Below are positions 12,503-35,196 of a DNA stretch of 42,557 bases, piece by piece (positions within the stretch are counted from its first letter, which is position 1; the number at the start of each line of letters is the position of its first letter). The notes below the pieces were generated by a model, which did no database searches, was not told the DNA's origin, and was given only the letters and a program-made list of their open reading frames with translations. The position numbers and the translations under genes were made by a program. The stretch spans positions 1 to 42,557 of the forward strand of contig CAIQRN010000081.1 in assembly GCA_903874255.1 (NCBI GenBank), written 5' to 3'. The DNA is from an uncultured Actinomycetes bacterium (GTDB lineage Bacteria > Actinomycetota > Actinomycetes > Nanopelagicales > Nanopelagicaceae).

Positions 12503-12518
12503 TCGAACAACTGTTCGA
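12503..12518. promoter_or_regulatory. LexA/SOS box
   Basis: TCGAACaactGTTCGA, perfect match to TCGAAC-N4-GTTCGA. Confidence 0.93.
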
Positions 12519-12564: not shown

Positions 12565-12580
12565 TCGAACATATGTTTGA
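12565..12580. promoter_or_regulatory. LexA/SOS box
   Basis: TCGAACatatGTTTGA, one mismatch; 32 bp upstream of lexA start. Confidence 0.88.
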
Positions 12581-21291: not shown

Positions 21292-22857
21292 CTAAAGTTC
21301 CTTTACGATTTGAACTAACTCACTATTTTCATGAGTAAGTATGAGGATTTCACTAAACTTCGGGATAACTGCCGCATTCAATTTTCTAATTAACTCTCCA
21401 TCATGTTTAACATTTTCGTGACGCGCTCCAGCATTTAACTTAAAGACTTTGTTTGAAATTTCAGATTTTTCCAGATCTCGAATGATTTCTTGGTCAATAT
21501 CGAACTCCGGTACTGGCAAGCTTTTCAATGTTTCGAGAGACAGAGTCATACCACCGTCTCTGACTCGCCACCACCAATACATAAGTGAACTATTCAATAA
21601 CAGGTAGGCACGATTCAGATCTTCTGCCGAATTGAAATGCAACATTTTGATCGAAGCACGTGAAACAGGTTTTTTTAGGGCGGAAATAAAATAGCGTGGC
21701 GATGCGGGTATGTAAAGAACATATTTAGAAGGACGATGTGACAGCAATGAGTCCAAACTCGGCCTATTCTGTAATTCATCATATAAATCTATGAAAACAG
21801 AACTCACCTTTGGAAAATATTCAGGCGTAAACGTGGGACTACTTAAAAATTTGTCAATATTTGCAAACATATGCGCCCTTTCACTGGTACGCCACCTTAG
21901 CAAGGATGTAATTCGATGCCCGCTCGAACCATAACCTGCAACGATAATTGCAGCCCTTATGCTGTTAGCGGAATTAGAATTGGTGCTACCGAATTTAATG
22001 CCATAAAAAATATTTCCAGGTATATTATCAAACGTATAAATCTTCAATGTCTCATAATTAGAGATAAGGAGTTTTCTCAATTCCCGAAATTTGCTTGCAT
22101 TAGTAAAGGACTGTGGGGTAATACTTATAAATCCCTTGCTGGTTTTAATTATATTTTCCAGAAAATAGGCATATAAATCGCGGGATTTTGAGGTTTCAAA
22201 CCGAGTATCTTCGCCTTTCATGCTCAAATATGGCGGGTTAACAATTACATAATCATGCAGAGGAATATTCTCAAGACTTGAATCATTAAAAATAGTTCCC
22301 ATCCCAGAGTCACTAGCAGACAAGAAGTCAAAAAGAATAAAACACTTCTCAATTTCATAAAACAAAAATTGATGTTTATCCTGAAAAGAGATTGTGAAAT
22401 ATACTCTTGCAATTGTTAATGCCAATGAATCTTTGTCGGAGAGAATCATTGAGTTGATCAGAAACTCTTCTTTATTTAATTGAGCATTCACAAGATGCCA
22501 GGATAGGTTTCCTATCCCCGAGCATGGATCGAGCCACTTTCCAATAGGGAACTTCTTGGACTGTTCAACCATAAGCAAGGCAACATCGTCCGGTGTAAAA
22601 AACTGACCATTATCTTTACGAGATGTCACATCAACAAGGGCAACACAATATTCGTATAAAACACCTATTTCGCCTATAGAAAGGCCGTTAAGCAAATCTT
22701 CGATTAATATTTCCGAATCATGGAATAATTTATCCTCTAATATATAGTGAAATTTTGATTCATTGGCATTTATGTGCGTGGCTAGCAGATTCATCCAAGC
22801 CGTTTTAATGCCAAATTTATTAATAAGTTCTTCAAATTTGGACGTATCAAAATTCAT
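21292..22857 (-). CDS. N-6 adenine DNA methyltransferase (restriction-modification)
   Basis: Motif I LDPCSGIGNLSWHLV and motif IV VIVNPPYLSMKG; may start at TTG 22869. Confidence 0.9.
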   Translation of the reverse strand: MNFDTSKFEELINKFGIKTAWMNLLATHINANESKFHYILEDKLFHDSEILIEDLLNGLSIGEIGVLYEYCVALVDVTSRKDNGQFFTPDDVALLMVEQSKKFPIGKWLDPCSGIGNLSWHLVNAQLNKEEFLINSMILSDKDSLALTIARVYFTISFQDKHQFLFYEIEKCFILFDFLSASDSGMGTIFNDSSLENIPLHDYVIVNPPYLSMKGEDTRFETSKSRDLYAYFLENIIKTSKGFISITPQSFTNASKFRELRKLLISNYETLKIYTFDNIPGNIFYGIKFGSTNSNSANSIRAAIIVAGYGSSGHRITSLLRWRTSERAHMFANIDKFLSSPTFTPEYFPKVSSVFIDLYDELQNRPSLDSLLSHRPSKYVLYIPASPRYFISALKKPVSRASIKMLHFNSAEDLNRAYLLLNSSLMYWWWRVRDGGMTLSLETLKSLPVPEFDIDQEIIRDLEKSEISNKVFKLNAGARHENVKHDGELIRKLNAAVIPKFSEILILTHENSELVQIVKEL

Positions 22858-22869
22858 TTGTACAGACAA

Positions 22870-24009
22870 CTAAAATTCCGATCTATAATATGCATGCACC
22901 TCTTGAACTTTTAGATCTCTAAAAAACATATGTGCAGATATCGTAGGCCTCAATTGTTTCACCTTCTTTAATTCAAAAACCGCTCTTGAACCTATAAATC
23001 TCACATCTGAAGTACGCACAAAGAAGAGTGGATTAATTTTATACCGACTTATCTCGTTGTTCCCACCACGTTTTTTTGAACTAGTTAACTTTTGGCTTGG
23101 CAGCTCAACTTCACCGTCAACAATTTTTCCCCCCATGGAAGTGAGGAATTCAATCAATTTTCCCGGAGTCCAAACCGCGTAGGCATTTCTTCCAGCAGGT
23201 CTAATTTCCCCTTTCAAGTTGGCCCAATTCCCCGCTTCATTTGCAGGAATCATGGTGAGAAACCCATGGATATCCTCAACACAAATCACATCAGCATATT
23301 TCTTAGTAGCATAATTTTCAGACACGGCAATTTGTACACCTTGCTCACTAAAATCATTTACATTACTCCCCATCACGTCCCAAAAATTAAGATTCTTTTC
23401 TAGTTGCTCATTTAACATCGTTTCAAAATGAGAGTAAGTATTGAGAAAAGAGTCTGTCTTTACTAAGAAACCATTTTCTTGATAGGCAGGTAAATCTGGC
23501 TCAGAGGTTTTGGATCCGGGTTCTTTATATTCGACGGTAAAAATTTCGTCCCCATTGATGGTTAATAAGGCACTGTCTATTCCCGCAAAACCACCAGCCT
23601 GCACTAGAAATCGATTGCCATCTAAAGATTTATATACATATCTTGGATTCAAGTGATGAGTTGAAAGCAGATCGATAATTGATTCACTCAGGCAATCTGG
23701 AGTATCACTGAAAATATAGAATTGTCTTAATTGCAACATATTTGCAAAAGTTTGTGCATAAACACACTCGCTAAATACAGCTGATTGAACAAGGTTGTTA
23801 TTGATTATTGCCTTGTTAAGCTCGGCAAGCAAGGCCGGACACCGAGTGTCAAGATCCTTATTCGGAATAGTTCTTTGATTCTTAAAATCATTCCAGATAT
23901 TGTCTCGCTCATTTTTATTGAATATGACTTTGGTGTAAGCCATTGAATAGAACTCACGAAGTAAAGAAATTTGTGATTCCACGAGAATAGATAGTTTACT
24001 ATTTTTCAT
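22870..24009 (-). CDS. Putative restriction endonuclease partner of the methylase (PD-(D/E)XK-like)
   Basis: GIDSALLTINGDEIFTVEYKEPG fits a D-x(n)-ExK core; abuts the methylase gene directly. Confidence 0.6.
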   Translation of the reverse strand: MKNSKLSILVESQISLLREFYSMAYTKVIFNKNERDNIWNDFKNQRTIPNKDLDTRCPALLAELNKAIINNNLVQSAVFSECVYAQTFANMLQLRQFYIFSDTPDCLSESIIDLLSTHHLNPRYVYKSLDGNRFLVQAGGFAGIDSALLTINGDEIFTVEYKEPGSKTSEPDLPAYQENGFLVKTDSFLNTYSHFETMLNEQLEKNLNFWDVMGSNVNDFSEQGVQIAVSENYATKKYADVICVEDIHGFLTMIPANEAGNWANLKGEIRPAGRNAYAVWTPGKLIEFLTSMGGKIVDGEVELPSQKLTSSKKRGGNNEISRYKINPLFFVRTSDVRFIGSRAVFELKKVKQLRPTISAHMFFRDLKVQEVHAYYRSEF

Positions 24010-24077
24010 CAAAACTGTGACTATTCAATAAATAAAAAATTTCATTTTCTTCAGATGATTCAAAACTGTGAGGAAAT

Positions 24078-25570: not shown

Positions 25571-27409
25571 CTAAAAACTAGTGAGATCATGCTTCAACAA
25601 AGTAAAGTAAAATTCTGCTCGAGCCTCAACAGATGATTCATCCCATGAATCAAGGCTCCAATCAAAGTTTTTAATCCCTGCATCATCAAAGAGTTTTATC
25701 AATTTATTTTTATCCGTATCGGCAAGACCATCCAGTCCAGCCGCTGATTTAGTTAAATATATTGGATGTTGAAGGTAAGGAACCTTTTTCTTCCCTGGTT
25801 CCGCGTCTTGCAGCGCTCTATTATCCTGCGGATATAAGAGAACTAAATTTCCAATAGTTTGATACTCCGGCTTCTTACCGGCCTTCTTGGTAGGTAGAAC
25901 ATGATCTATGTCCCAACCGAATTTCTCATTCTTCCCTTTTCGAGTCTTAAAATACTCTCCAACTGAATCCTGGCATTTTGTTAGATGATCATCAAGCATC
26001 CAACTTAAATGACTCAAGACTGCTCGAATTTTTACCCTGTCGGAGGGTACGTCATAACTCCAACCAAGCATCTCTGCCTTGAGCTTTTCAAAATCAGCTC
26101 CAGTCAAAAGCGCTTTAGACGAATACGCCTTATCAACTTGTTCAATTGTCGCTTCCGAGCCAAGCGCATAAAGTTCAGAAGCCCAGGCAGGCACTATTGA
26201 TTCGAACTTTTGAGTTCTCTCCTGCGCTAATACGTAGTAGGTGGTTCTATTGTGAATTTGCTTTATAACCCTCTTGAAAACTTTTTCATTAGAATAATTT
26301 CTAACTGCCAGTAAGAGCGGGTAGTGCTGAACCGATTTCAAATGTTTAGCCATGAAAAGCTGTGGCAAGTAACCATGTATATCGTGGTGCAAATTTGAAT
26401 ACTGCCTTAAGTGTTCAGCGTCGCTCTCGATGTCTAAAGCAAAATCTGTTGCCTTATTCGCGGTATCTCCTAAATACTTTGTCCAAAAATCTGTTAGTCC
26501 ATCGTAAGTAATTTTCTTGCCGCCTGATTGCGTCCAAGCCAAAGCTCTCAGTAAGTATTTTGGATCATGCAAGCGGCGAATATCGCATCTATTCAATATC
26601 ACCGACATCCCTTGCCAAGATTGTGAAATCAAGGCAAAATCTTCATCGTCCACCTTCTGAAAGATTCTATTCTTAATCAAATCGGCACTTGTCAAACTCA
26701 ATCCACGGTCATTGATATGATCAAATACAGAGATTGCTTCAGTTTGTGTGTCCAAAGTTAATTCGACAAATTTTACGCTATTTATGATTTTCTCAATTGC
26801 ATCAACGAATTTATCTTTGTCAATCCAGCCTTCATTTTCAAATTGAGCATTGTAAATATACTTAGTGACTGAAACAAGATTCTTCTGTGTTTCAGTTTGC
26901 GTGTCGGCTTTATGGAAAAAATCCTCCGCTACTCCTTCGTTGGCGTTGGACCAATGCCAAATTTCTTCGAGAATTCTATTTGCATTCGCTTGATTCATTG
27001 AGACGCGCGGCTCATAGTCCTCAATTGATCGAGACAGGCATGTTCTGACCTCTGTCGCAAGGCGATTGTGCTTATCACTGTTGGCTTTGATAATTCCATG
27101 CGTTTTCATAAATTTTCGGGCACACATCAAGAATAATAGGAACGTCATTGTTCTTTGTTGTCCATCAATTATGTACCTTTGCTTTTCATTCCCAGGTACC
27201 TTGCAGAGAATAATCGACCCAATCAAATACTCATCGCTACCCGAAAGCACAAATTCTCGTAAGTCTGTTAATAACTCGCCTACCTGACCGCTGTCATTTG
27301 CTTCCCAGGCATATTCACGTTGCCACTGTGGAACCGAAAGCTCAAATTCACCGGATAGATAATCTCTTAAGTTCTTTACTGGAACCTTTGAGTCAGTTGT
27401 TTGAAGCAT
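25571..27409 (-). CDS. DUF262/DUF1524 (GmrSD-like, ParB-like + HNH) protein
   Basis: N-term FELSVPQWQREYAWE...RYIIDGQQRTMTFLLFL (DUF262); C-term FGWDIDHVLPTKKAGKK...TIGNLVLLYPQDNRALQD (DUF1524 HNH). Confidence 0.93.
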   Translation of the reverse strand: MLQTTDSKVPVKNLRDYLSGEFELSVPQWQREYAWEANDSGQVGELLTDLREFVLSGSDEYLIGSIILCKVPGNEKQRYIIDGQQRTMTFLLFLMCARKFMKTHGIIKANSDKHNRLATEVRTCLSRSIEDYEPRVSMNQANANRILEEIWHWSNANEGVAEDFFHKADTQTETQKNLVSVTKYIYNAQFENEGWIDKDKFVDAIEKIINSVKFVELTLDTQTEAISVFDHINDRGLSLTSADLIKNRIFQKVDDEDFALISQSWQGMSVILNRCDIRRLHDPKYLLRALAWTQSGGKKITYDGLTDFWTKYLGDTANKATDFALDIESDAEHLRQYSNLHHDIHGYLPQLFMAKHLKSVQHYPLLLAVRNYSNEKVFKRVIKQIHNRTTYYVLAQERTQKFESIVPAWASELYALGSEATIEQVDKAYSSKALLTGADFEKLKAEMLGWSYDVPSDRVKIRAVLSHLSWMLDDHLTKCQDSVGEYFKTRKGKNEKFGWDIDHVLPTKKAGKKPEYQTIGNLVLLYPQDNRALQDAEPGKKKVPYLQHPIYLTKSAAGLDGLADTDKNKLIKLFDDAGIKNFDWSLDSWDESSVEARAEFYFTLLKHDLTSF

Positions 27410-27448
27410 GTTCTTACCTTTCGACTAGCGATAGTTGTAAATGATCTC

Positions 27449-28315
27449 TTACTTCAAGTGATTTGGGAACCACTCCATCGGGTTAATTTGCGTCAGAAAA
27501 CCCCAATGATCTTCAAAGAATGAGCAAAGCTGACCTTCTTGAGTCATTCGAAGGCGTGAACCTACTTTCAGACCAACAACTAAAATCTGCAAATTTTTCT
27601 GATAATTAGAATTGAAATCCGAAAGCTTGACTCCGGTATTTCGATCAGAAATGTCGCCATTGGCTTCGACAACGTACGAATGGGATAAGAATCTCGATGA
27701 AACGGGGGCCCCAATTTTCAACTCAGATTCATTTTCAGTATTCATATTTTCACCTTGCTCTTCAACTGCGGGATGGCCTACTTCCGAACTCGATAAATCT
27801 GCAGCAGCTTCATCTTGAGATTCATCAACGCTTTCAAATTGGGAAAGTTCATTTAACCAACTTGTATAGTCAATTTCTATAGAACAAGCGGCAAGCAACT
27901 TTGAAGATGTCGCTGCTAAATCCTTCAATTCGGAGAGGTTTTCTGCCAATTGTCGATGTACCCAGGCATTTCTCTCACCCAAAAGATCATCTAAACCGTT
28001 ATAAAAGAATAAATGTTTTTCGCGCGATATTCGTGAATTCAATGGGAAACGAAACTGAGAGGACCCGTTTCTAGCAAGTTCCTTCAATATCGCTTGAGGG
28101 TCTCTAAAATTGAATTCCTTGGGTAGGGTATTTTCATCCTGAAGTTTCTTTTTCCAACCTTCTCCATAAAGACTTGCAAGACTGCTATCAATCTCTGCAA
28201 ATAGGGAATCGCAAAAATGCAGAATTATCACCAAGGCTGCAGAAAAAATTCCGTATGGTTTGTTCAGTGCGATTCGCGGCAAGTTCAATTCTGTCAATTT
28301 ATGCACTCCGGACAT
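27449..28315 (-). CDS. HEPN-domain protein (Swt1-like HEPN candidate) with extra C-terminal domain
   Basis: YNGLDDLLGERNAWVHRQLAENL contains an RX4H motif in a helical context; overlaps the helicase 3' end by 22 bp. Confidence 0.6.
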   Translation of the reverse strand: MSGVHKLTELNLPRIALNKPYGIFSAALVIILHFCDSLFAEIDSSLASLYGEGWKKKLQDENTLPKEFNFRDPQAILKELARNGSSQFRFPLNSRISREKHLFFYNGLDDLLGERNAWVHRQLAENLSELKDLAATSSKLLAACSIEIDYTSWLNELSQFESVDESQDEAAADLSSSEVGHPAVEEQGENMNTENESELKIGAPVSSRFLSHSYVVEANGDISDRNTGVKLSDFNSNYQKNLQILVVGLKVGSRLRMTQEGQLCSFFEDHWGFLTQINPMEWFPNHLK

Positions 28316-30774
28316 AGTTCGGAAATTGAGGTTTCATAAAGTAATTCGTTATCTATATTTGTTAAAATTTCCAAAGAATATTCTGACGATCGACGTGCGA
28401 CTAAGCATCCAAGACAAACAAATGCTCCTTGATGGGAGACCTTATTTTTTGAATCTATGTGGCGTCGAAATACCTGTTGTTGTTTAAAACTACAGGTAAC
28501 GCATCGAGTGCTCTGCGTGAGCCCCTGATAAAACCAGCCACTTTCAAGCAATTCTAAATCTGATGTGCTTATGGCTAAATTGAAATTCTTACACAAATGA
28601 GGGACAGAAGATTCAGGGAACTGGGAAGAACCAGGTTGTTGTGGGTGCAAAATTTCGACCTCTGGAAGGTCTAACACCAGATCGTCAATAGTCAGAATAG
28701 ATGCTTCCTCTTCTCCATCCATTTTTTCGTAATAATCTATTGGCTTGTTCACTTCATTTAAACTACGGCCAATCACGTGAAGATGTTGTGTCGATCTAGT
28801 TGTCAAGACATACATCAACCGAGCAGCCTTGCCGGAGTCATAACTCTGTTCCTTCAGTAGGTCGCCAGGATTTAGGATAATGACCACATCAAATTCAAGA
28901 CCTTTCACATCTTGCGCCATATAAGCCTTGAAATGAGCCTTCCCGATCGATTCAAAACTTTTGTTCCTAAACAATTTCACTATCTCTGAATTTCCCACAA
29001 GTAGTACGCTGCGTTCATTCATTAGATATCCAGAAATTAGTTCCTCTGCTTCTCCAATTCCTTTTGCTTCATCCAATGGTTGATGCAATTTAAGCGAATC
29101 TGGTTTTTCAAGAAAAGGCTCAGCCGGTTCAACTTGCACTTCGGAAAGCTCCAAGAATTGATTGGCGTATAAAAGTATTTCTTTTGGAACTCGGTAACTT
29201 CGAGTGAGTTTTTCCTCGATCGGATCGTCATCAGATAAATAATCAGTAATAGAGGGCCATGTTTCGTATACAACAACACCCGTTGCTTGCGCTAAATCAC
29301 CTGTTAGCGAAATAGAACTTGCCGAATCGGTGCGCCGGCGAAGCATAATTAGTTGCATTGGCGTCAGGTCTTGGGCTTCATCGATCGCTATATGGCCCCA
29401 AACCTCATCAGTGCCCTGAATTCGATATCGGATGTAATCCAGAAGTGGAATATCATGGACCCTTATATCAAATGGATGGGGCGTAACATTAGTTAGCCAT
29501 TCCCTGATTTCAGATTCTTCAAACACTGACGCTGCTGATGAGATAAATGCTTTTGCCGATTTTTTTAAGTCTTTAAGTACATTTTCTGGAGTTAGTTCAG
29601 GGTACATATTTCGAAGAATTGTGCGATAAGTCGAAGTTGCTTGAATAATTTTTACTGGTTCGCCTTCAAACTGTCTGCGTTGTTTTCCACTTGCTTCCCA
29701 AACTTGGTAAAACCTTTCCGATAATAAATTTGAAACCATCACACCAGCTCGTAACCTTAGTTGTGAATAAATAATATTTTCACGTCGGAGTGTATTTATG
29801 ATGTCGAGTGAATCTAGAACCGTAAAATCTACTTCTAGATCACCAATTTTGACTTTATAAGTGTCATCAAGAACTGAAGGTGCATCCTTAAAATAATTAT
29901 CAATAACATTTGTAATGCTTTCAAAACCCTTCAAGAATTGAACTTCTTCGGTATCTACTTCTGTAGAAGCTTTCCAAGATGTTAAATCCTCTGGCGTCGA
30001 CATAATGATGTCTGAATTTCCCAATATATCCAGAGCATCTTTAACATATTCTAGAAATTGTTGGTTTGGTCCTATCAAGAGCATGCCCTTTTTCTTAGTT
30101 GCTGGGTCGGCAAAAGCGATGCGGGACAGACGCTCTAGGAGTACTACGGTCTTTCCGGATCCCGGTGGGCCTTGAATCGCAAGAATTGTATTTGCATTCG
30201 CTCTTATTAGTTTAAATTGATCCGGCTGCAATGTTGCGCCAACAGGTTGCAAGGAATCTGATCGAGTACTAGTGATCACGTCTGCAAGTTGCTCCTCAGC
30301 CATAACTTTAGGAACGACCGCTCTAACTCCAGAATTATTTTCTTCCGCAAGTGTGATAATTTTTCCGTTTTTGATTTGAAAACGAATTCGCCTTACAACA
30401 TCTGGAAAATCGTTAATTGGGAGTACGGATCGCCCAATTCCATCATTATTTCTATGGTACGTAAGGAAATAGTCAATTCCTTTATGTGAAGAAGGTATCT
30501 GAGGACTACCAGATGCCTTTGGTAGCGACCCAAAACCATAATAAAGAATTTGTCCGTCGATTAAATCTACTCTTACAAAGAACGGATCCTTCTCGGATGG
30601 TAAATCATCTCGTTTTCGCATGAGTGCCTCAGCAATATTTCGGCCTGCTTTTGGCCCGGCTCCACCGATAGCTGAATCTTTGAGAAGTGCCACGAGCTCT
30701 TCTCTTTCAAGCTCAATGTTTACCTTTACAAAATCGAGATAAACCTCTTCATCAGCTTTTGCTTTGGTATCCAC
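28294..30774 (-). CDS. HelD-like SF1 (UvrD/Rep family) helicase with C-terminal zinc finger
   Basis: Walker A AIQGPPGSGKTVVLLERLS, Walker B HIAIDEAQDLTPMQL, SYRVPKEI; N-term HelD-like; C-term CVTC...HQGAFVCLGC...CPEC. GTG start with AGGAG RBS. Confidence 0.85.
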   Translation of the reverse strand: MDTKAKADEEVYLDFVKVNIELEREELVALLKDSAIGGAGPKAGRNIAEALMRKRDDLPSEKDPFFVRVDLIDGQILYYGFGSLPKASGSPQIPSSHKGIDYFLTYHRNNDGIGRSVLPINDFPDVVRRIRFQIKNGKIITLAEENNSGVRAVVPKVMAEEQLADVITSTRSDSLQPVGATLQPDQFKLIRANANTILAIQGPPGSGKTVVLLERLSRIAFADPATKKKGMLLIGPNQQFLEYVKDALDILGNSDIIMSTPEDLTSWKASTEVDTEEVQFLKGFESITNVIDNYFKDAPSVLDDTYKVKIGDLEVDFTVLDSLDIINTLRRENIIYSQLRLRAGVMVSNLLSERFYQVWEASGKQRRQFEGEPVKIIQATSTYRTILRNMYPELTPENVLKDLKKSAKAFISSAASVFEESEIREWLTNVTPHPFDIRVHDIPLLDYIRYRIQGTDEVWGHIAIDEAQDLTPMQLIMLRRRTDSASSISLTGDLAQATGVVVYETWPSITDYLSDDDPIEEKLTRSYRVPKEILLYANQFLELSEVQVEPAEPFLEKPDSLKLHQPLDEAKGIGEAEELISGYLMNERSVLLVGNSEIVKLFRNKSFESIGKAHFKAYMAQDVKGLEFDVVIILNPGDLLKEQSYDSGKAARLMYVLTTRSTQHLHVIGRSLNEVNKPIDYYEKMDGEEEASILTIDDLVLDLPEVEILHPQQPGSSQFPESSVPHLCKNFNLAISTSDLELLESGWFYQGLTQSTRCVTCSFKQQQVFRRHIDSKNKVSHQGAFVCLGCLVARRSSEYSLEILTNIDNELLYETSISELCPECIN

Positions 30775-30857
30775 GCTTCTCCTGACGTTTGGATTGTGAG
30801 AACTTTAAAGTAATAGTTAGCGAATTAGAAGATCTGTGGTAAAAAGAATCAGAATGA

Positions 30858-31781
30858 CTAGTCATCCCCCGCTCCAATAATCTCCTTCAGATTAGCCAGC
30901 CGGCGATTAATCTCCGCAGCCTCTTCTTCCCTACCCAGTGCCGCATACAGATTCGCGATCTCAGTTTCGGCTTCAAAGGCTAGGTCCCAGTCTTGGTGAC
31001 AGCCATTGGCATTCATCGAAAGGGATGTGCGAAGTTCTTCTTCAGCAGATTCGAATTCACCGATTAATACTTTGGCACAGCCCATGCGAAAACGGGACCA
31101 GGTTTCGAAGTATTGATTTTGTGCAGTGACTGCAAAATCTAAAGCTTTCTGGGCAAAGTGCATGGCTTCAATTGCATCACCAGTTTTTGTGTATGCAACT
31201 GCAAGGCAGGCATCGCTCATGTATACGCGCTCTGGATCTTTTGCTTTCTTAAAGTGAGTGCGAGAAGTTAATAGATACGGGATTGACTCTTCGTATTTTT
31301 CTAGACCTTGCAAAGATGAACCGCAGTTGAAGTAATCAACACCGATAGTTATGTCGGATAGATCTGGGTCAACATCTTTGAGGGCTTTCAGGTGGCAATC
31401 TAAAGATTTCTGAAACTCCTGTGCGTCATAGAAGAAGCGGCCGGCATCGCGAAACATTTCAGTGGCAGCTGCTGGGTCATCTTCGTTAACAAGTTTGACG
31501 GCTTCTAGTGCAACTTGTGCAGCTTCGGCATCGCGCTCTAGGCGGCGCAATGACCAAGTGATGCCTTCATAGACATGGAGTAATTGTTTGGTAGCAACAT
31601 ATGTTGTGAGACCTTCATAAATCTCGCGAGCGCTTTGGCACAGTGCAAGGGATGCGGCGTGATCGCCGCGGTCATAGGCCAAGTGGCTAAGTTGCACATA
31701 TGTATCGGCGCGATCTTCGCCTTGAGTTAATGGAATCTTTTTCCATAACTCCTTTTCATTGGGTTTGTTTTCTGTACTCAC
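30858..31781 (-). CDS. TPR-repeat protein (TPR1)
   Basis: Repeats such as YEGITWSLRRLERDAEAAQVALEAVK and DAGRFFYDAQEFQKSLDCHLKALK; GTG start (VSTENKPNEKELWKKI) with AAAGGA RBS. Confidence 0.85.
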   Translation of the reverse strand: MSTENKPNEKELWKKIPLTQGEDRADTYVQLSHLAYDRGDHAASLALCQSAREIYEGLTTYVATKQLLHVYEGITWSLRRLERDAEAAQVALEAVKLVNEDDPAAATEMFRDAGRFFYDAQEFQKSLDCHLKALKDVDPDLSDITIGVDYFNCGSSLQGLEKYEESIPYLLTSRTHFKKAKDPERVYMSDACLAVAYTKTGDAIEAMHFAQKALDFAVTAQNQYFETWSRFRMGCAKVLIGEFESAEEELRTSLSMNANGCHQDWDLAFEAETEIANLYAALGREEEAAEINRRLANLKEIIGAGDD

Positions 31782-31930
31782 CGTTTCCTTTCTTACAGGC
31801 AATGGAGCTTCGGACGGAGTGGAGAAGTTACTCTGCGTGACTGACGAATGTGGGAGGCGGGCTGGGGCTTGCCCGTGTTACAGGGAGGCTTGGAGCGTGT
31901 TTTTGGGGGAAGCGGAGAGTAGCACGGATT

Positions 31931-31946
31931 TCGAACAAGTGTTCGG
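31931..31946. promoter_or_regulatory. LexA/SOS-like box upstream of TPR1
   Basis: TCGAACaagtGTTCGG, one mismatch to TCGAAC-N4-GTTCGA; intergenic, 150 bp upstream of TPR1 start. Confidence 0.75.
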
Positions 31947-32006: not shown

Positions 32007-33101
32007 TCATGACCCCCTTCGTGGGACGTAGCTACGCTTTCGATTCATAATGATTGCTTGCTTGGCTTCACCCTCGACAGAAAATTCTTTTGCCAAATCT
32101 GGAAAGGCGCTTACGAAAGCTTTTTCGTTAAACACTTTGCTTTCCTTCAAGGTGCGCGTCCACTTGCATACACCCACAACTCCCCCGGCGTCCTGACAAA
32201 AAGCTTGAAGGTTTGCGTGGGCTATCTCCTTATTCCAAGATGCTCGAGCATTGTGTCCGATTAGCTGCAAGCTTTTGGTGTGCAATGTTTCGAGTGAAGT
32301 TTCGCCTTCGGCAAAATTGCCCAATAAATACTCTACTTCGGAAACTATCTCAAAAAGTTCTGGGTCGATATCACTTAGCAAAATTAAAGAATCTTTTGGG
32401 CGTGTAATTGTGAAAGAGGGCGCAATACGAACTTTCGAATCTGAAAATTGATCATAGAGATCAGGGTAGGACGATTGAAAGTTTGCTACATCAAAAATCA
32501 ACTTTGCTTTGCGCTCTTGAACTTTAGAGAATTTTCCAATTTCCTCCTTTACTTGTTCAGTGTTGTCTTTTGAAGCGGTCTCCTGCGGTTTCGCGTGATT
32601 AATCCGGAAGATTTCGCGGATCTGAGTATCAAGTGAATCGCATTTTTTGATCTTCAATTCAGATTTAAGCAACAATTCATGCCACAGCAGAATATCAGGA
32701 GTCGGGGTAATTAGAGATTTTTGGGAAACCTTATTCTTAAAAGACTCTGCAATAGCAAACTTTTCAGCATTTGCCAAAGCCTCACTTGCAAGTTGTTGTG
32801 CAAGAGCAATGGCGCCTTTTAATTCAGCGGGGGTGAAATTAAACCATTCGCCAGATATGCGATTCTCTGCAAGTAAGTTATGCATGATTTTTTCGATTTC
32901 AGAGATTGCAGGACTCTTAATCACGGTATCAACATGCAGGGTGCGGGGATTGCCAGTTTGATGCTCCGAGGTACGGTCTTGGCTAGACCTGCCCTCCTCT
33001 TCACGCACTAGTCCAATTTTGACGTAATTCGAAACTTCATTTGTTAGGACATCTGTCTCCCGAACAAAATACAACTCCCCAGGTGTTAATTTCATAATCA
33101 A
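32007..33101 (-). CDS. GIY-YIG (T5orf172-like) nuclease-domain protein
   Basis: LYFVRE...YVKIGLVREEEGRSSQDRTSEHQTGNPRTLHVDTVIKSP...IEKIMHNLLAENRISGEWFNF. Confidence 0.85.
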   Translation of the reverse strand: MIMKLTPGELYFVRETDVLTNEVSNYVKIGLVREEEGRSSQDRTSEHQTGNPRTLHVDTVIKSPAISEIEKIMHNLLAENRISGEWFNFTPAELKGAIALAQQLASEALANAEKFAIAESFKNKVSQKSLITPTPDILLWHELLLKSELKIKKCDSLDTQIREIFRINHAKPQETASKDNTEQVKEEIGKFSKVQERKAKLIFDVANFQSSYPDLYDQFSDSKVRIAPSFTITRPKDSLILLSDIDPELFEIVSEVEYLLGNFAEGETSLETLHTKSLQLIGHNARASWNKEIAHANLQAFCQDAGGVVGVCKWTRTLKESKVFNEKAFVSAFPDLAKEFSVEGEAKQAIIMNRKRSYVPRRGS

Positions 33102-33187: not shown

Positions 33188-35113
33188 CTATAACTCCGGC
33201 AATAGTGATTTCTCGCGAATAAATGACAGAGATTCTTCCAAGTAGGATTCGATTGAAGCATCAGGATTCCCATTAAATGCCAAAATGGTAGAAGCTTTAG
33301 ATCTACTAAGTGAAACGTAACCAAGATTCTTTATAGGTGGATAAGTCGTATTCCCCGGTTTGTCGCACCATTTTTCGAGTTGATCGAGATCAAAAATGAG
33401 AACATGTGAAGCGCTGAGGCCGCGAATACCTTGGTGGTTTGCAATTCTTATCGCACCAAGTTGCGTTAACTCACGTCTTTGTTCTTGTGGAACTAAATCA
33501 TGGAATTTCAAATTTAGCACTGGTGCCAGTTCTTCGAGAGCAGATTTCACTGAGAAATAACTTGTTTCATCACTTTTCCCGGCGCTGAAATCAGACGATA
33601 AAGGCTTCGCTACCGCAATCAACAAATCCATTCCTCGGTTGGCTTTCTTTGCATCTTCTAAAGTGGAGAGAATGACTGAACGAATTGAAGGATCTCGCCC
33701 AGAGCCTTGCGCTAGACGTTCTATTTTGAAGTCATTATCCATTCGTGGCAACCCAAGATCAAATTCAAATTGATCACTAGGTGTTGGTTTTTGCAAGAGT
33801 TTTTGTTGAATCCATTCTTTTCCTAGTTTAATATCTGAAAAATTCTCCCAAAATGATTGTGCTAATAGAAAGGCACGAGTGGAATTTCTGAATGAGCGCT
33901 TTAATATTACGCGCTCAGCTTTTTTAAACCACTCCTGTAGCCAAGGACTTGGGTGAACTCCACCGTCAGAAAAATTATATAGCTCCTGACCTTTGCCATA
34001 TGCAATGAACCAAGATGCATTTGGCCGAGCCACCATTTCCACAATTTCAAAAAGTTCCTGTACTAAGTCCTGCGATTCGTCTATTAAGATGGTGTCATAA
34101 AGTACCCGCTCATTTTCTGGGATAGATTGCATGAGAGCCACTAAATCTGTTTTCAATGATGCGCGCCCACTAATTCCTTTACTAAATCCAAGCGATTTAT
34201 AAAAAGCCCATTCATCAAACACATCTATGAATCCGTAATCTCCTACGTCTTTCTTTAAAAGTTGATATTCGCGACGTTGATCAGCAGCAAGAACTTTGTT
34301 GAAGCAAATGTGCAATACGGCACCGCCCAAACTTGCATGTTTCAAACCAATTTCCCTAAGAATTGTGGTTTTACCGGTTCCAGGTGCTCCTTCAAACGAA
34401 ACATTGAACGACCCAGGTGGTGCATATTTGCTTCCATAATCTTTCGATTGGGCGACTGGGCGAGCTATTTCATCTTTCATACCTTGCGTTATTTCAATGA
34501 CATTAGACGAAGGTGCAATTGCAGTTCGAAATTCGCTCACGCCATCGTGATCACCGCGGCAATGTGGAGGTGTACGTGTTCCATGAATTGGTGAATCCAC
34601 AATTTGTTTCAGGCATTTAATGATTGATTCATAAGTTTCAAAATCATCTTTAAAAGCCATACCCTTAGATTGGATCTGAATCCGCGGATCAGTAAATCGA
34701 GCATTCCACTCTGCTCGAGTTATTTCGCTCCAGAGCACAGCAGTTTGTATAAAAGGAATCGTGGTAGGCACATTTTTCTTTCCATGGTAAAGCTTTAAAT
34801 AGTCGCGTAATTTTAGTGAGCCAGTCAGTACTTGACGGGCAGGATGTTGCTTTGGAGAATCCTTCTTGAGTACGAATTCATTGAGGTTATAAGTCTGTAT
34901 CGAATCCAACTTCATCGATTTTACCTCGAATAAAAACAGACCTGCGTATTCGTCAAAAATTATAAGATCTAAATCGGGCACCCCAGGCAAATAGTGCACA
35001 TCAAACCAGAGTTCATATTTTGCATTCCTAATTTCAGATAGGTGCTTCCCTAAAACATACTCACCGTGGTGCCCCAATAAATCTCTGGGGAGTTCGGTGT
35101 GGAGGATAGCCAT
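33188..35113 (-). CDS. NERD domain + SF1 helicase/ATPase
   Basis: NERD nuclease pattern LPGVPDLDLIIFDEYAGLFLFEVKSM; Walker A FEGAPGTGKTTILREI; Walker B DTILIDESQDL. Confidence 0.85.
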   Translation of the reverse strand: MAILHTELPRDLLGHHGEYVLGKHLSEIRNAKYELWFDVHYLPGVPDLDLIIFDEYAGLFLFEVKSMKLDSIQTYNLNEFVLKKDSPKQHPARQVLTGSLKLRDYLKLYHGKKNVPTTIPFIQTAVLWSEITRAEWNARFTDPRIQIQSKGMAFKDDFETYESIIKCLKQIVDSPIHGTRTPPHCRGDHDGVSEFRTAIAPSSNVIEITQGMKDEIARPVAQSKDYGSKYAPPGSFNVSFEGAPGTGKTTILREIGLKHASLGGAVLHICFNKVLAADQRREYQLLKKDVGDYGFIDVFDEWAFYKSLGFSKGISGRASLKTDLVALMQSIPENERVLYDTILIDESQDLVQELFEIVEMVARPNASWFIAYGKGQELYNFSDGGVHPSPWLQEWFKKAERVILKRSFRNSTRAFLLAQSFWENFSDIKLGKEWIQQKLLQKPTPSDQFEFDLGLPRMDNDFKIERLAQGSGRDPSIRSVILSTLEDAKKANRGMDLLIAVAKPLSSDFSAGKSDETSYFSVKSALEELAPVLNLKFHDLVPQEQRRELTQLGAIRIANHQGIRGLSASHVLIFDLDQLEKWCDKPGNTTYPPIKNLGYVSLSRSKASTILAFNGNPDASIESYLEESLSFIREKSLLPEL

Positions 35114-35196
35114 CGGGGAAGTCTTGTCCGAATTCTGCTCACATGCAAGATGCACCAAATTTGAAATTAGTGACTACTCCGTGATGCGTTTCCCTT

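Follow-up and report, generated by a model that had tools for sequence, protein, structure and literature searches.

The locus

We analysed a 42,557-nucleotide stretch of DNA (the window) from the 1.57-Mb genome of an uncultured actinobacterium of the Nanopelagicaceae, in which a first-pass annotation had proposed that four tightly packed genes behind a LexA-like site form a new defence cassette. The four same-strand open reading frames (ORFs) do lie on the minus strand at the coordinates then reported. They encode, in order, a TPR protein (30858-31781, 307 aa), a HelD-like superfamily 1 (SF1) ATPase (28294-30774, 826 aa), a candidate Swt1-type HEPN-like RNase (27449-28297, 282 aa with a TTG start) and a DUF262/DUF1524 protein, a GmrSD-type Type IV restriction enzyme (25571-27409, 612 aa). 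Comparison with related genomes suggested a different arrangement: the region very probably consists of three separately evolving units lying side by side in a variable defence hotspot. The first would be a genus-level SOS gene made up of the LexA box, a leader and the TPR protein, the second a module of two genes, one for a divergent HelD-like ATPase and one for a HEPN protein of the Swt1 type, and the third a stand-alone GmrSD-type restriction enzyme.

The packing is as close as had been described, with 83 bp between the TPR and helicase genes and 39 bp between the HEPN and DUF262 genes. The TPR ORF reaches 31802 with a TTG start; a GTG at 31781, which follows AAGAAAGGAAACG, is better placed and is the start common to TPR orthologues. 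The HEPN gene could begin at an ATG at 28315, giving a 22-bp overlap with the helicase gene, or at the TTG at 28297, giving a 4-bp overlap (TTGA). As the TTG is preceded by GGAG and fits the N-termini of homologues better, an overlap of 4 bp is the more probable. Close spacing on one strand says little in favour of a cassette here, given that the minus strand carries all of the main genes between about 18.8 and 35.2 kb of the window.

The proposed defence setting was supported, as restriction and other defence genes lie together within 14 kb. At 18.9-21.2 kb there is a pair of VWA and HDAC genes and at 35.5 kb a second TPR gene; the block of about 14 kb between them contains a Type II N6 methyltransferase, its probable 380-aa partner, Mrr, GmrSD, the HEPN, HelD-like and TPR genes, a GIY-YIG (T5orf172) gene and a NERD-UvrD helicase. 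In another genome (G195) only about 4 kb separates the homologues of the VWA gene and of the second TPR gene, which marks the site as a variable hotspot. The second HelD-like/HEPN pair found, in genome G998, is also near a homologous HDAC gene (67.5% identical). GC content is 47.3% in the TPR gene, similar at 48.1% and 46.4% in the VWA and RNR genes, and 40.5%, 40.4% and 40.3% in the helicase, HEPN and DUF262 genes. The composition break falls between the TPR gene and the other three.

The LexA box and the TPR gene

The LexA-like site noted in front of the first gene is a perfect palindrome, CGAACACTTGTTCG (31932-31945), of the form CGAAC-N4-GTTCG. The window also holds a lexA gene (LexA_DNA_bind, 4.6e-22), which has one box of this form at 12504 and another, with a single mismatch, at 12566; one of the six perfect palindromes of the genome sits at this lexA. 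A backward control gave five such palindromes, so the site count in itself is not evidence, and conservation in orthologues is. We therefore compared the TPR gene, whose product contains a TPR_12 domain (Pfam, 8.4e-13), across the genus, where homologues are nearly universal (24 of 26 good genomes). Members of its closest subfamily occur in G180 (twice), G914, G916 and G918 at 62-68% identity, and in G913, G016, G964 and G079 at 34-36%. Upstream of the TPR start, by 127-143 bp, CGAACNNNNGTTCG is present in all eight other genomes, wherever enough sequence is present; in the window the box is 151 bp upstream. With a conserved LexA box at its promoter in nine genomes, the TPR gene is an independent SOS-type gene outside the helicase-HEPN module.

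The neighbourhoods of the TPR orthologues that we read contained no helicase, HEPN or DUF262 gene beside the TPR gene. Downstream genes were unrelated where read, and in G914, G916 and G918 a 185-aa secreted-like protein overlaps the TPR stop. The conservation of box and leader in orthologues, together with the GC break at the TPR gene, indicates that the LexA promoter is that of a resident SOS gene. When a defence block lands behind a conserved SOS gene, it can thus acquire a LexA box and tight spacing, and a cassette should not be defined from promoter and spacing by themselves.

SOS control of the helicase-HEPN pair by read-through from the TPR promoter is possible in the window genome only. 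A pattern scan of the gaps between the four genes, including the 83-bp TPR/helicase gap, gave no terminator-like site. No LexA box was found upstream of the G998 pair (L101), and an SOS link of helicase and HEPN is not conserved.

The leader of the TPR gene (31782-31931, minus strand) contains a TACTCT -10-like element and a conserved block of about 65 nt. The leader of about 130-150 nt (31782-31945 in the window with its box; L073-L079, L082, L084) is kept although the TPR proteins are just 34-68% identical, in the order LexA box, TACTCT, CTTCCCCC, and then the block of about 65 nt, GTCAGTCACGCAGAGTAACTTCTCCACTCCGTCCGAAGC...GAAAGGAAACGGTGAG. Base-pairing between its C-rich stretch and the region of the start codon is conceivable; a structure for the leader had neither covariation support nor an Rfam match. 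TPR matches in plasmids were not found. A GIY-YIG (T5orf172/MUG113) gene (32007-33101, minus strand) is directly upstream of the LexA-TPR gene in the window and likewise in G964 and G079 (three genomes; L082, L084), which suggests that this gene, rather than the helicase, is the conserved neighbour of the TPR gene.

The DUF262/DUF1524 gene and the four-gene set

The nuclease architecture assigned to the last gene was confirmed: GmrSD_N (DUF262, 3.2e-30) and GmrSD_C (DUF1524, 1.7e-8) both match above cut-off in one chain. The protein thus has both domains of the GmrSD/BrxU Type IV restriction enzymes, and in PADLOC it matches HEC-06 and Orf5; it differs in being a neighbour only, not conserved with the helicase-HEPN pair. 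A search for helicase, HEPN and DUF262 in 296 genomes of the family gave DUF262 homologues in G151 (36% identity) and G932 (46% over the part present). Both genomes lack the helicase and the HEPN gene, and in G151 the homologue is accompanied by a 218-aa protein and a cytosine methylase. Conversely, the assembly of G998 (77% complete) contains the pair but no DUF262 homologue.

A single SOS-induced defence system of four genes, TPR - helicase - HEPN - DUF262, is consistent with the order, the common strand, the short gaps, the upstream LexA box and the lack of terminator-like sites between the genes, and with the GC content near 40.4% of the last three. However, the TPR/LexA orthologues do not have the other three genes adjacent, the DUF262 homologues occur without helicase and HEPN, and the G998 pair has neither a TPR gene nor a LexA box upstream and no DUF262 homologue in the assembly. 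The four-gene set was seen in no other of the 296 genomes searched for helicase, HEPN and DUF262. As a conserved set in the family it is already refuted, and we regard such a system as very improbable. The shared GC content is consistent with helicase, HEPN and DUF262 having arrived together in the window genome; they may have done so, with no recurrence elsewhere.

The helicase-HEPN pair

The proposed co-occurrence held for the two middle genes. A HelD-like motor was found in two of the 296 genomes, that of the window (G000) and G998; other matches were short and to ordinary UvrD-type motors. Each of these motor genes is followed immediately downstream, on the same strand, by a HEPN gene of one and the same family. 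Identity between the two genomes is 39% for the HelD-like proteins and about 30% for the HEPN N-termini, too low for the pairing to be a recent copy. By comparison, none of 16 canonical HelD neighbourhoods contained a HEPN of the window family (Fisher p = 0.0065). These data make it likely that helicase and HEPN form a functional pair; the two are probably translationally coupled, and they may be a small, undescribed defence module. The combination seen in the window matched no named system, as the first-pass annotation had supposed.

The HelD-like motor

The annotation of the second gene as a HelD-like helicase with a zinc finger was borne out. Pfam identifies an SF1 motor, and NCBIfam HelR matches at up to 1.7e-46, far below the trusted cut-off. 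The PDB sequence match is Mycobacterium smegmatis HelD (6yxu, 5.5e-31). In the predicted structure (mean pLDDT 72.9) the motor and clamp arm are mostly above 90, and in a Foldseek search the best seven PDB matches were all HelD proteins from two genera (E 1.9e-35), well ahead of UvrD/PcrA. The motor motifs are present: Walker A GPPGSGKT (aa 202), DEAQD (465), GDLAQ (492) and KGLE (624). An N-terminal antiparallel hairpin (aa 3-36 and 41-56) followed by a beta domain is predicted with a pLDDT of about 61-75, and a helical clamp-arm insertion splits domain 1A (aa ~265-455, pLDDT mostly >90) and aligns to the HelD-specific insertion. The protein thus shares with HelD/HelR (classes I-III) the SF1 motor, the split 1A with its helical clamp arm and the N-terminal hairpin and beta domain.

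It differs in two elements of the HelD architecture, in having a HEPN partner and, in the window copy, in an added zinc domain. The DWR motif has been described as "absolutely conserved" in HelD, where it forms the Trp-cage by which the contact of the N-terminal domain with the motor is stabilised (PMC8655204). DWR is missing in the window and G998 proteins; of the 23 HelD homologues aligned, 22 have it and the other has NWQA. The PCh-loop of M. smegmatis HelD has an acidic tip, DDED (PMC7749160); the long PCh-loop insertion, which precedes the GHvvvDEAQ motif (GHIAIDEAQD here), is missing in the HelD-like protein, as it is in many shorter HelD proteins. The two proteins without DWR group together with full support, on a long branch, and the HelD-like protein is 22-27% identical to canonical members. 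We therefore describe the motor as a fold-level relative of HelD: that it works like HelD is plausible, while the claim that it is a HelD fails for one tested feature, DWR.

Many Actinobacteria carry several HelD genes (PMC8655204), and the gene could thus be an ordinary extra HelD isoform, serving RNA polymerase recycling or rifampicin protection and unrelated to defence, as its fold, conserved motor motifs and actinobacterial host would allow. We consider this improbable: no canonical HelD was found in the window genome or in the family genomes searched, DWR is lost from both copies, and the motor occurs in just two of the 296 genomes, in a defence hotspot and next to a HEPN gene. No close relatives of the helicase were detected in scans of genome contigs or viral contigs.

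The C-terminal zinc domain (28297-28540, minus strand; aa ~746-826) is found in the window copy alone and contains three CxxC pairs (C758/C761, C787/C790, C821/C824) together with H772 and H781. It has no Pfam family; a BIR match (E 0.037) was below cut-off and was rejected. A homologous domain forms the C-terminal end of a TPR-like protein of another genus (G166, L052:9334-10566; 31% over 81 aa, E 3.7e-6), whose gene adjoins a NERD gene.

The candidate HEPN protein

The third gene encodes a protein with an N-terminal helical domain and a C-terminal beta-rich domain. The RX4H motif noted earlier is present as RNAWVH (27956-27973, minus strand) and is kept in homologues: RNxWxH occurs in all five full-length homologues (RNAWVH, RNDWVH, RNEWFH, RNEWFH and RNMWAH), so that the protein is HEPN-like by motif. 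Four of six family members gave weak matches to PF18731 (HEPN_Swt1; best E 0.0023, under the curated cut-off). A PIN_9 match (E 0.09) was discarded. We found no matches in plasmids or phages, and an alignment scan detected the family at two loci in genome contigs and at none in viral contigs.

Homologues without the helicase occur in G018, in G019 (at a C5-methylase locus), in G918 (with GmrSD, distant) and in G184 (beside a DarT-like gene). The G018 locus (L050:3909-10771) resembles a restriction-modification (R-M) locus, in which a GHKL ATPase, Z1, a C5-methylase, HNH_2 and, as the last gene, the HEPN lie together. In G184 (L091:3842-5614) the homologue, with RNEWFH, and the neighbouring DarT-like gene (Pfam DarT, 2.7e-7) lie on opposite strands. 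Such varied restriction and defence neighbours mark the HEPN protein as a promiscuous defence accessory; linkage of HEPN proteins to R-M systems and their use as suicide effectors have been described (PMC3710099).

These loci bear on two alternatives to a functional helicase-HEPN pair. In one, the HEPN protein is a free-standing accessory toxin found near many restriction systems, which landed by chance behind a HelD-like gene, the helicase then acting alone. This would account for the HEPN genes beside Z1/C5-methylase/HNH, C5-methylase, GmrSD and DarT-like genes, and for the close relationship of the G018 and G998 copies, one without and one with a helicase. A chance landing accords poorly with a HEPN directly downstream of both HelD-like copies, themselves 39% identical, with the probable 4-bp overlap in the window and with the 0/16 count at canonical HelD loci, and we hold this alternative to be unlikely, if a serious one. 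In the other, the two genes form a toxin-antitoxin-like pair in which the HelD-like ATPase keeps the HEPN toxin inactive, mainly for island maintenance, with phage defence secondary. The overlapping two-gene operon and the patchy distribution would suit this, and HEPN toxins are common in toxin-antitoxin systems (PMC3710099). The antitoxin would, however, be 826 aa long and is absent beside the HEPN genes of G018, G019 and G184, which makes this account more doubtful than the first.

A three-gene set (encoding an ATPase-like protein of 634-636 aa and proteins of about 280-291 and 243-251 aa) is common to G918 and G019 (L100:1863-8772, L051:1701-5179). A Swt1-type HEPN is near each set, and GmrSD in G918; the 634-aa protein, the sole member tested, had no match in Pfam.

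A possible mechanism

Helicase-HEPN modules are known. In CoCoNuTs, the UPF1-like SF1 helicase CnuH is followed by the HEPN effector CnuE, and the system is proposed to act on RNA (PMC11090510); fusions of HEPN and SF1 helicases have also been described (PMC3710099). The window pair resembles CnuH-CnuE of CoCoNuT Type II/III in that the gene for a HEPN RNase comes after that for an SF1 helicase, in a predicted RNA-directed defence. It differs in that CnuH is UPF1-like, whereas the motor here is HelD-like, and in that CnuE has a winged helix-turn-helix domain before HEPN. No CnuB/CnuC (McrB/McrC-type) partner genes were found among the neighbours scanned, and the pair thus falls outside Type II/III, which combine a UPF1-like helicase with such partners. 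A second group comprises Swt1-like/Abi2-type HEPN proteins associated with R-M systems, including DUF499-HEPN (Hma/BREX-related) and giant SF1 helicase-HEPN proteins (PMC3710099, PMC12839542). There too an RX4H HEPN is found beside helicases and restriction enzymes, but the window HEPN stands alone, has a C-terminal beta-rich domain and is partnered by a separate, HelD-like protein. By analogy, the window pair most plausibly works like the CoCoNuT and HEPN-helicase modules, except that its motor is of the RNA-polymerase-recycling type; it is a variation on known helicase-HEPN modules rather than a separate category.

We infer RNA polymerase binding, RNase activity, a defence role and SOS read-through for the pair, and suggest, speculatively, an RNA polymerase-gated RNase in which the HelD-like ATPase controls the HEPN protein. 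The HelD-type N-terminal hairpin and the clamp arm of the motor would engage RNA polymerase, and the ATPase would detect polymerases that have stalled or been commandeered in the course of infection or DNA damage. The HelD-like protein would hold or deliver the HEPN protein; upon release or activation, the latter would cut nascent or nearby RNA (or tRNA) and halt growth. Such an arrest would come into play behind the island's DNA-cutting enzymes, as a second layer. In the window genome, the block lies behind the TPR gene, and co-transcription from the LexA-controlled promoter would tie it to the SOS response. A further step, to which we give somewhat less credence than to the gating itself, is that with the DWR/Trp-cage coupling lost and the nucleic-acid-clearing loop lacking, the motor no longer recycles polymerases; it would instead mark stalled or hijacked ones and license HEPN to destroy their transcripts.

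Several observations weigh against this reading. The pair is known from two loci only, and the G998 contig ends inside the HEPN gene. The window HEPN protein has no significant Pfam HEPN match, so the assignment depends on the motif and on homologues, and Foldseek on its model (pLDDT 61, with the helical N-terminal domain predicted) gave chance matches only. The loss of DWR could mean a loss of RNA polymerase docking. Finally, a helicase is missing next to the G018 HEPN gene, which shares about 76% DNA identity with that of G998; the pairing is therefore not obligatory for HEPN. Three units, a helicase-HEPN module and the proposed mechanism nevertheless form, taken as a whole, the best explanation that we can offer, one to which we give slightly less than even credence.

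Were the proposal correct, the pair would sense transcription itself, and a polymerase-surveillance module of this kind would be, within the literature searched, the first defence system derived from an RNA polymerase recycling factor. No helicase-HEPN module with a HelD-type motor was found in that literature, a weak negative given that queries for "HelD" mostly return "held".

Neighbouring genes

At 21292-24012 (minus strand), the Type II N6 methyltransferase matched PADLOC at 5.6e-188, and the 380-aa protein that directly abuts it, which has no family match, is probably its restriction partner. The NERD-UvrD helicase (33188-35158, minus strand), upstream of the GIY-YIG gene, is related to PADLOC C3a187 (2.9e-17) and is a possible second defence gene.

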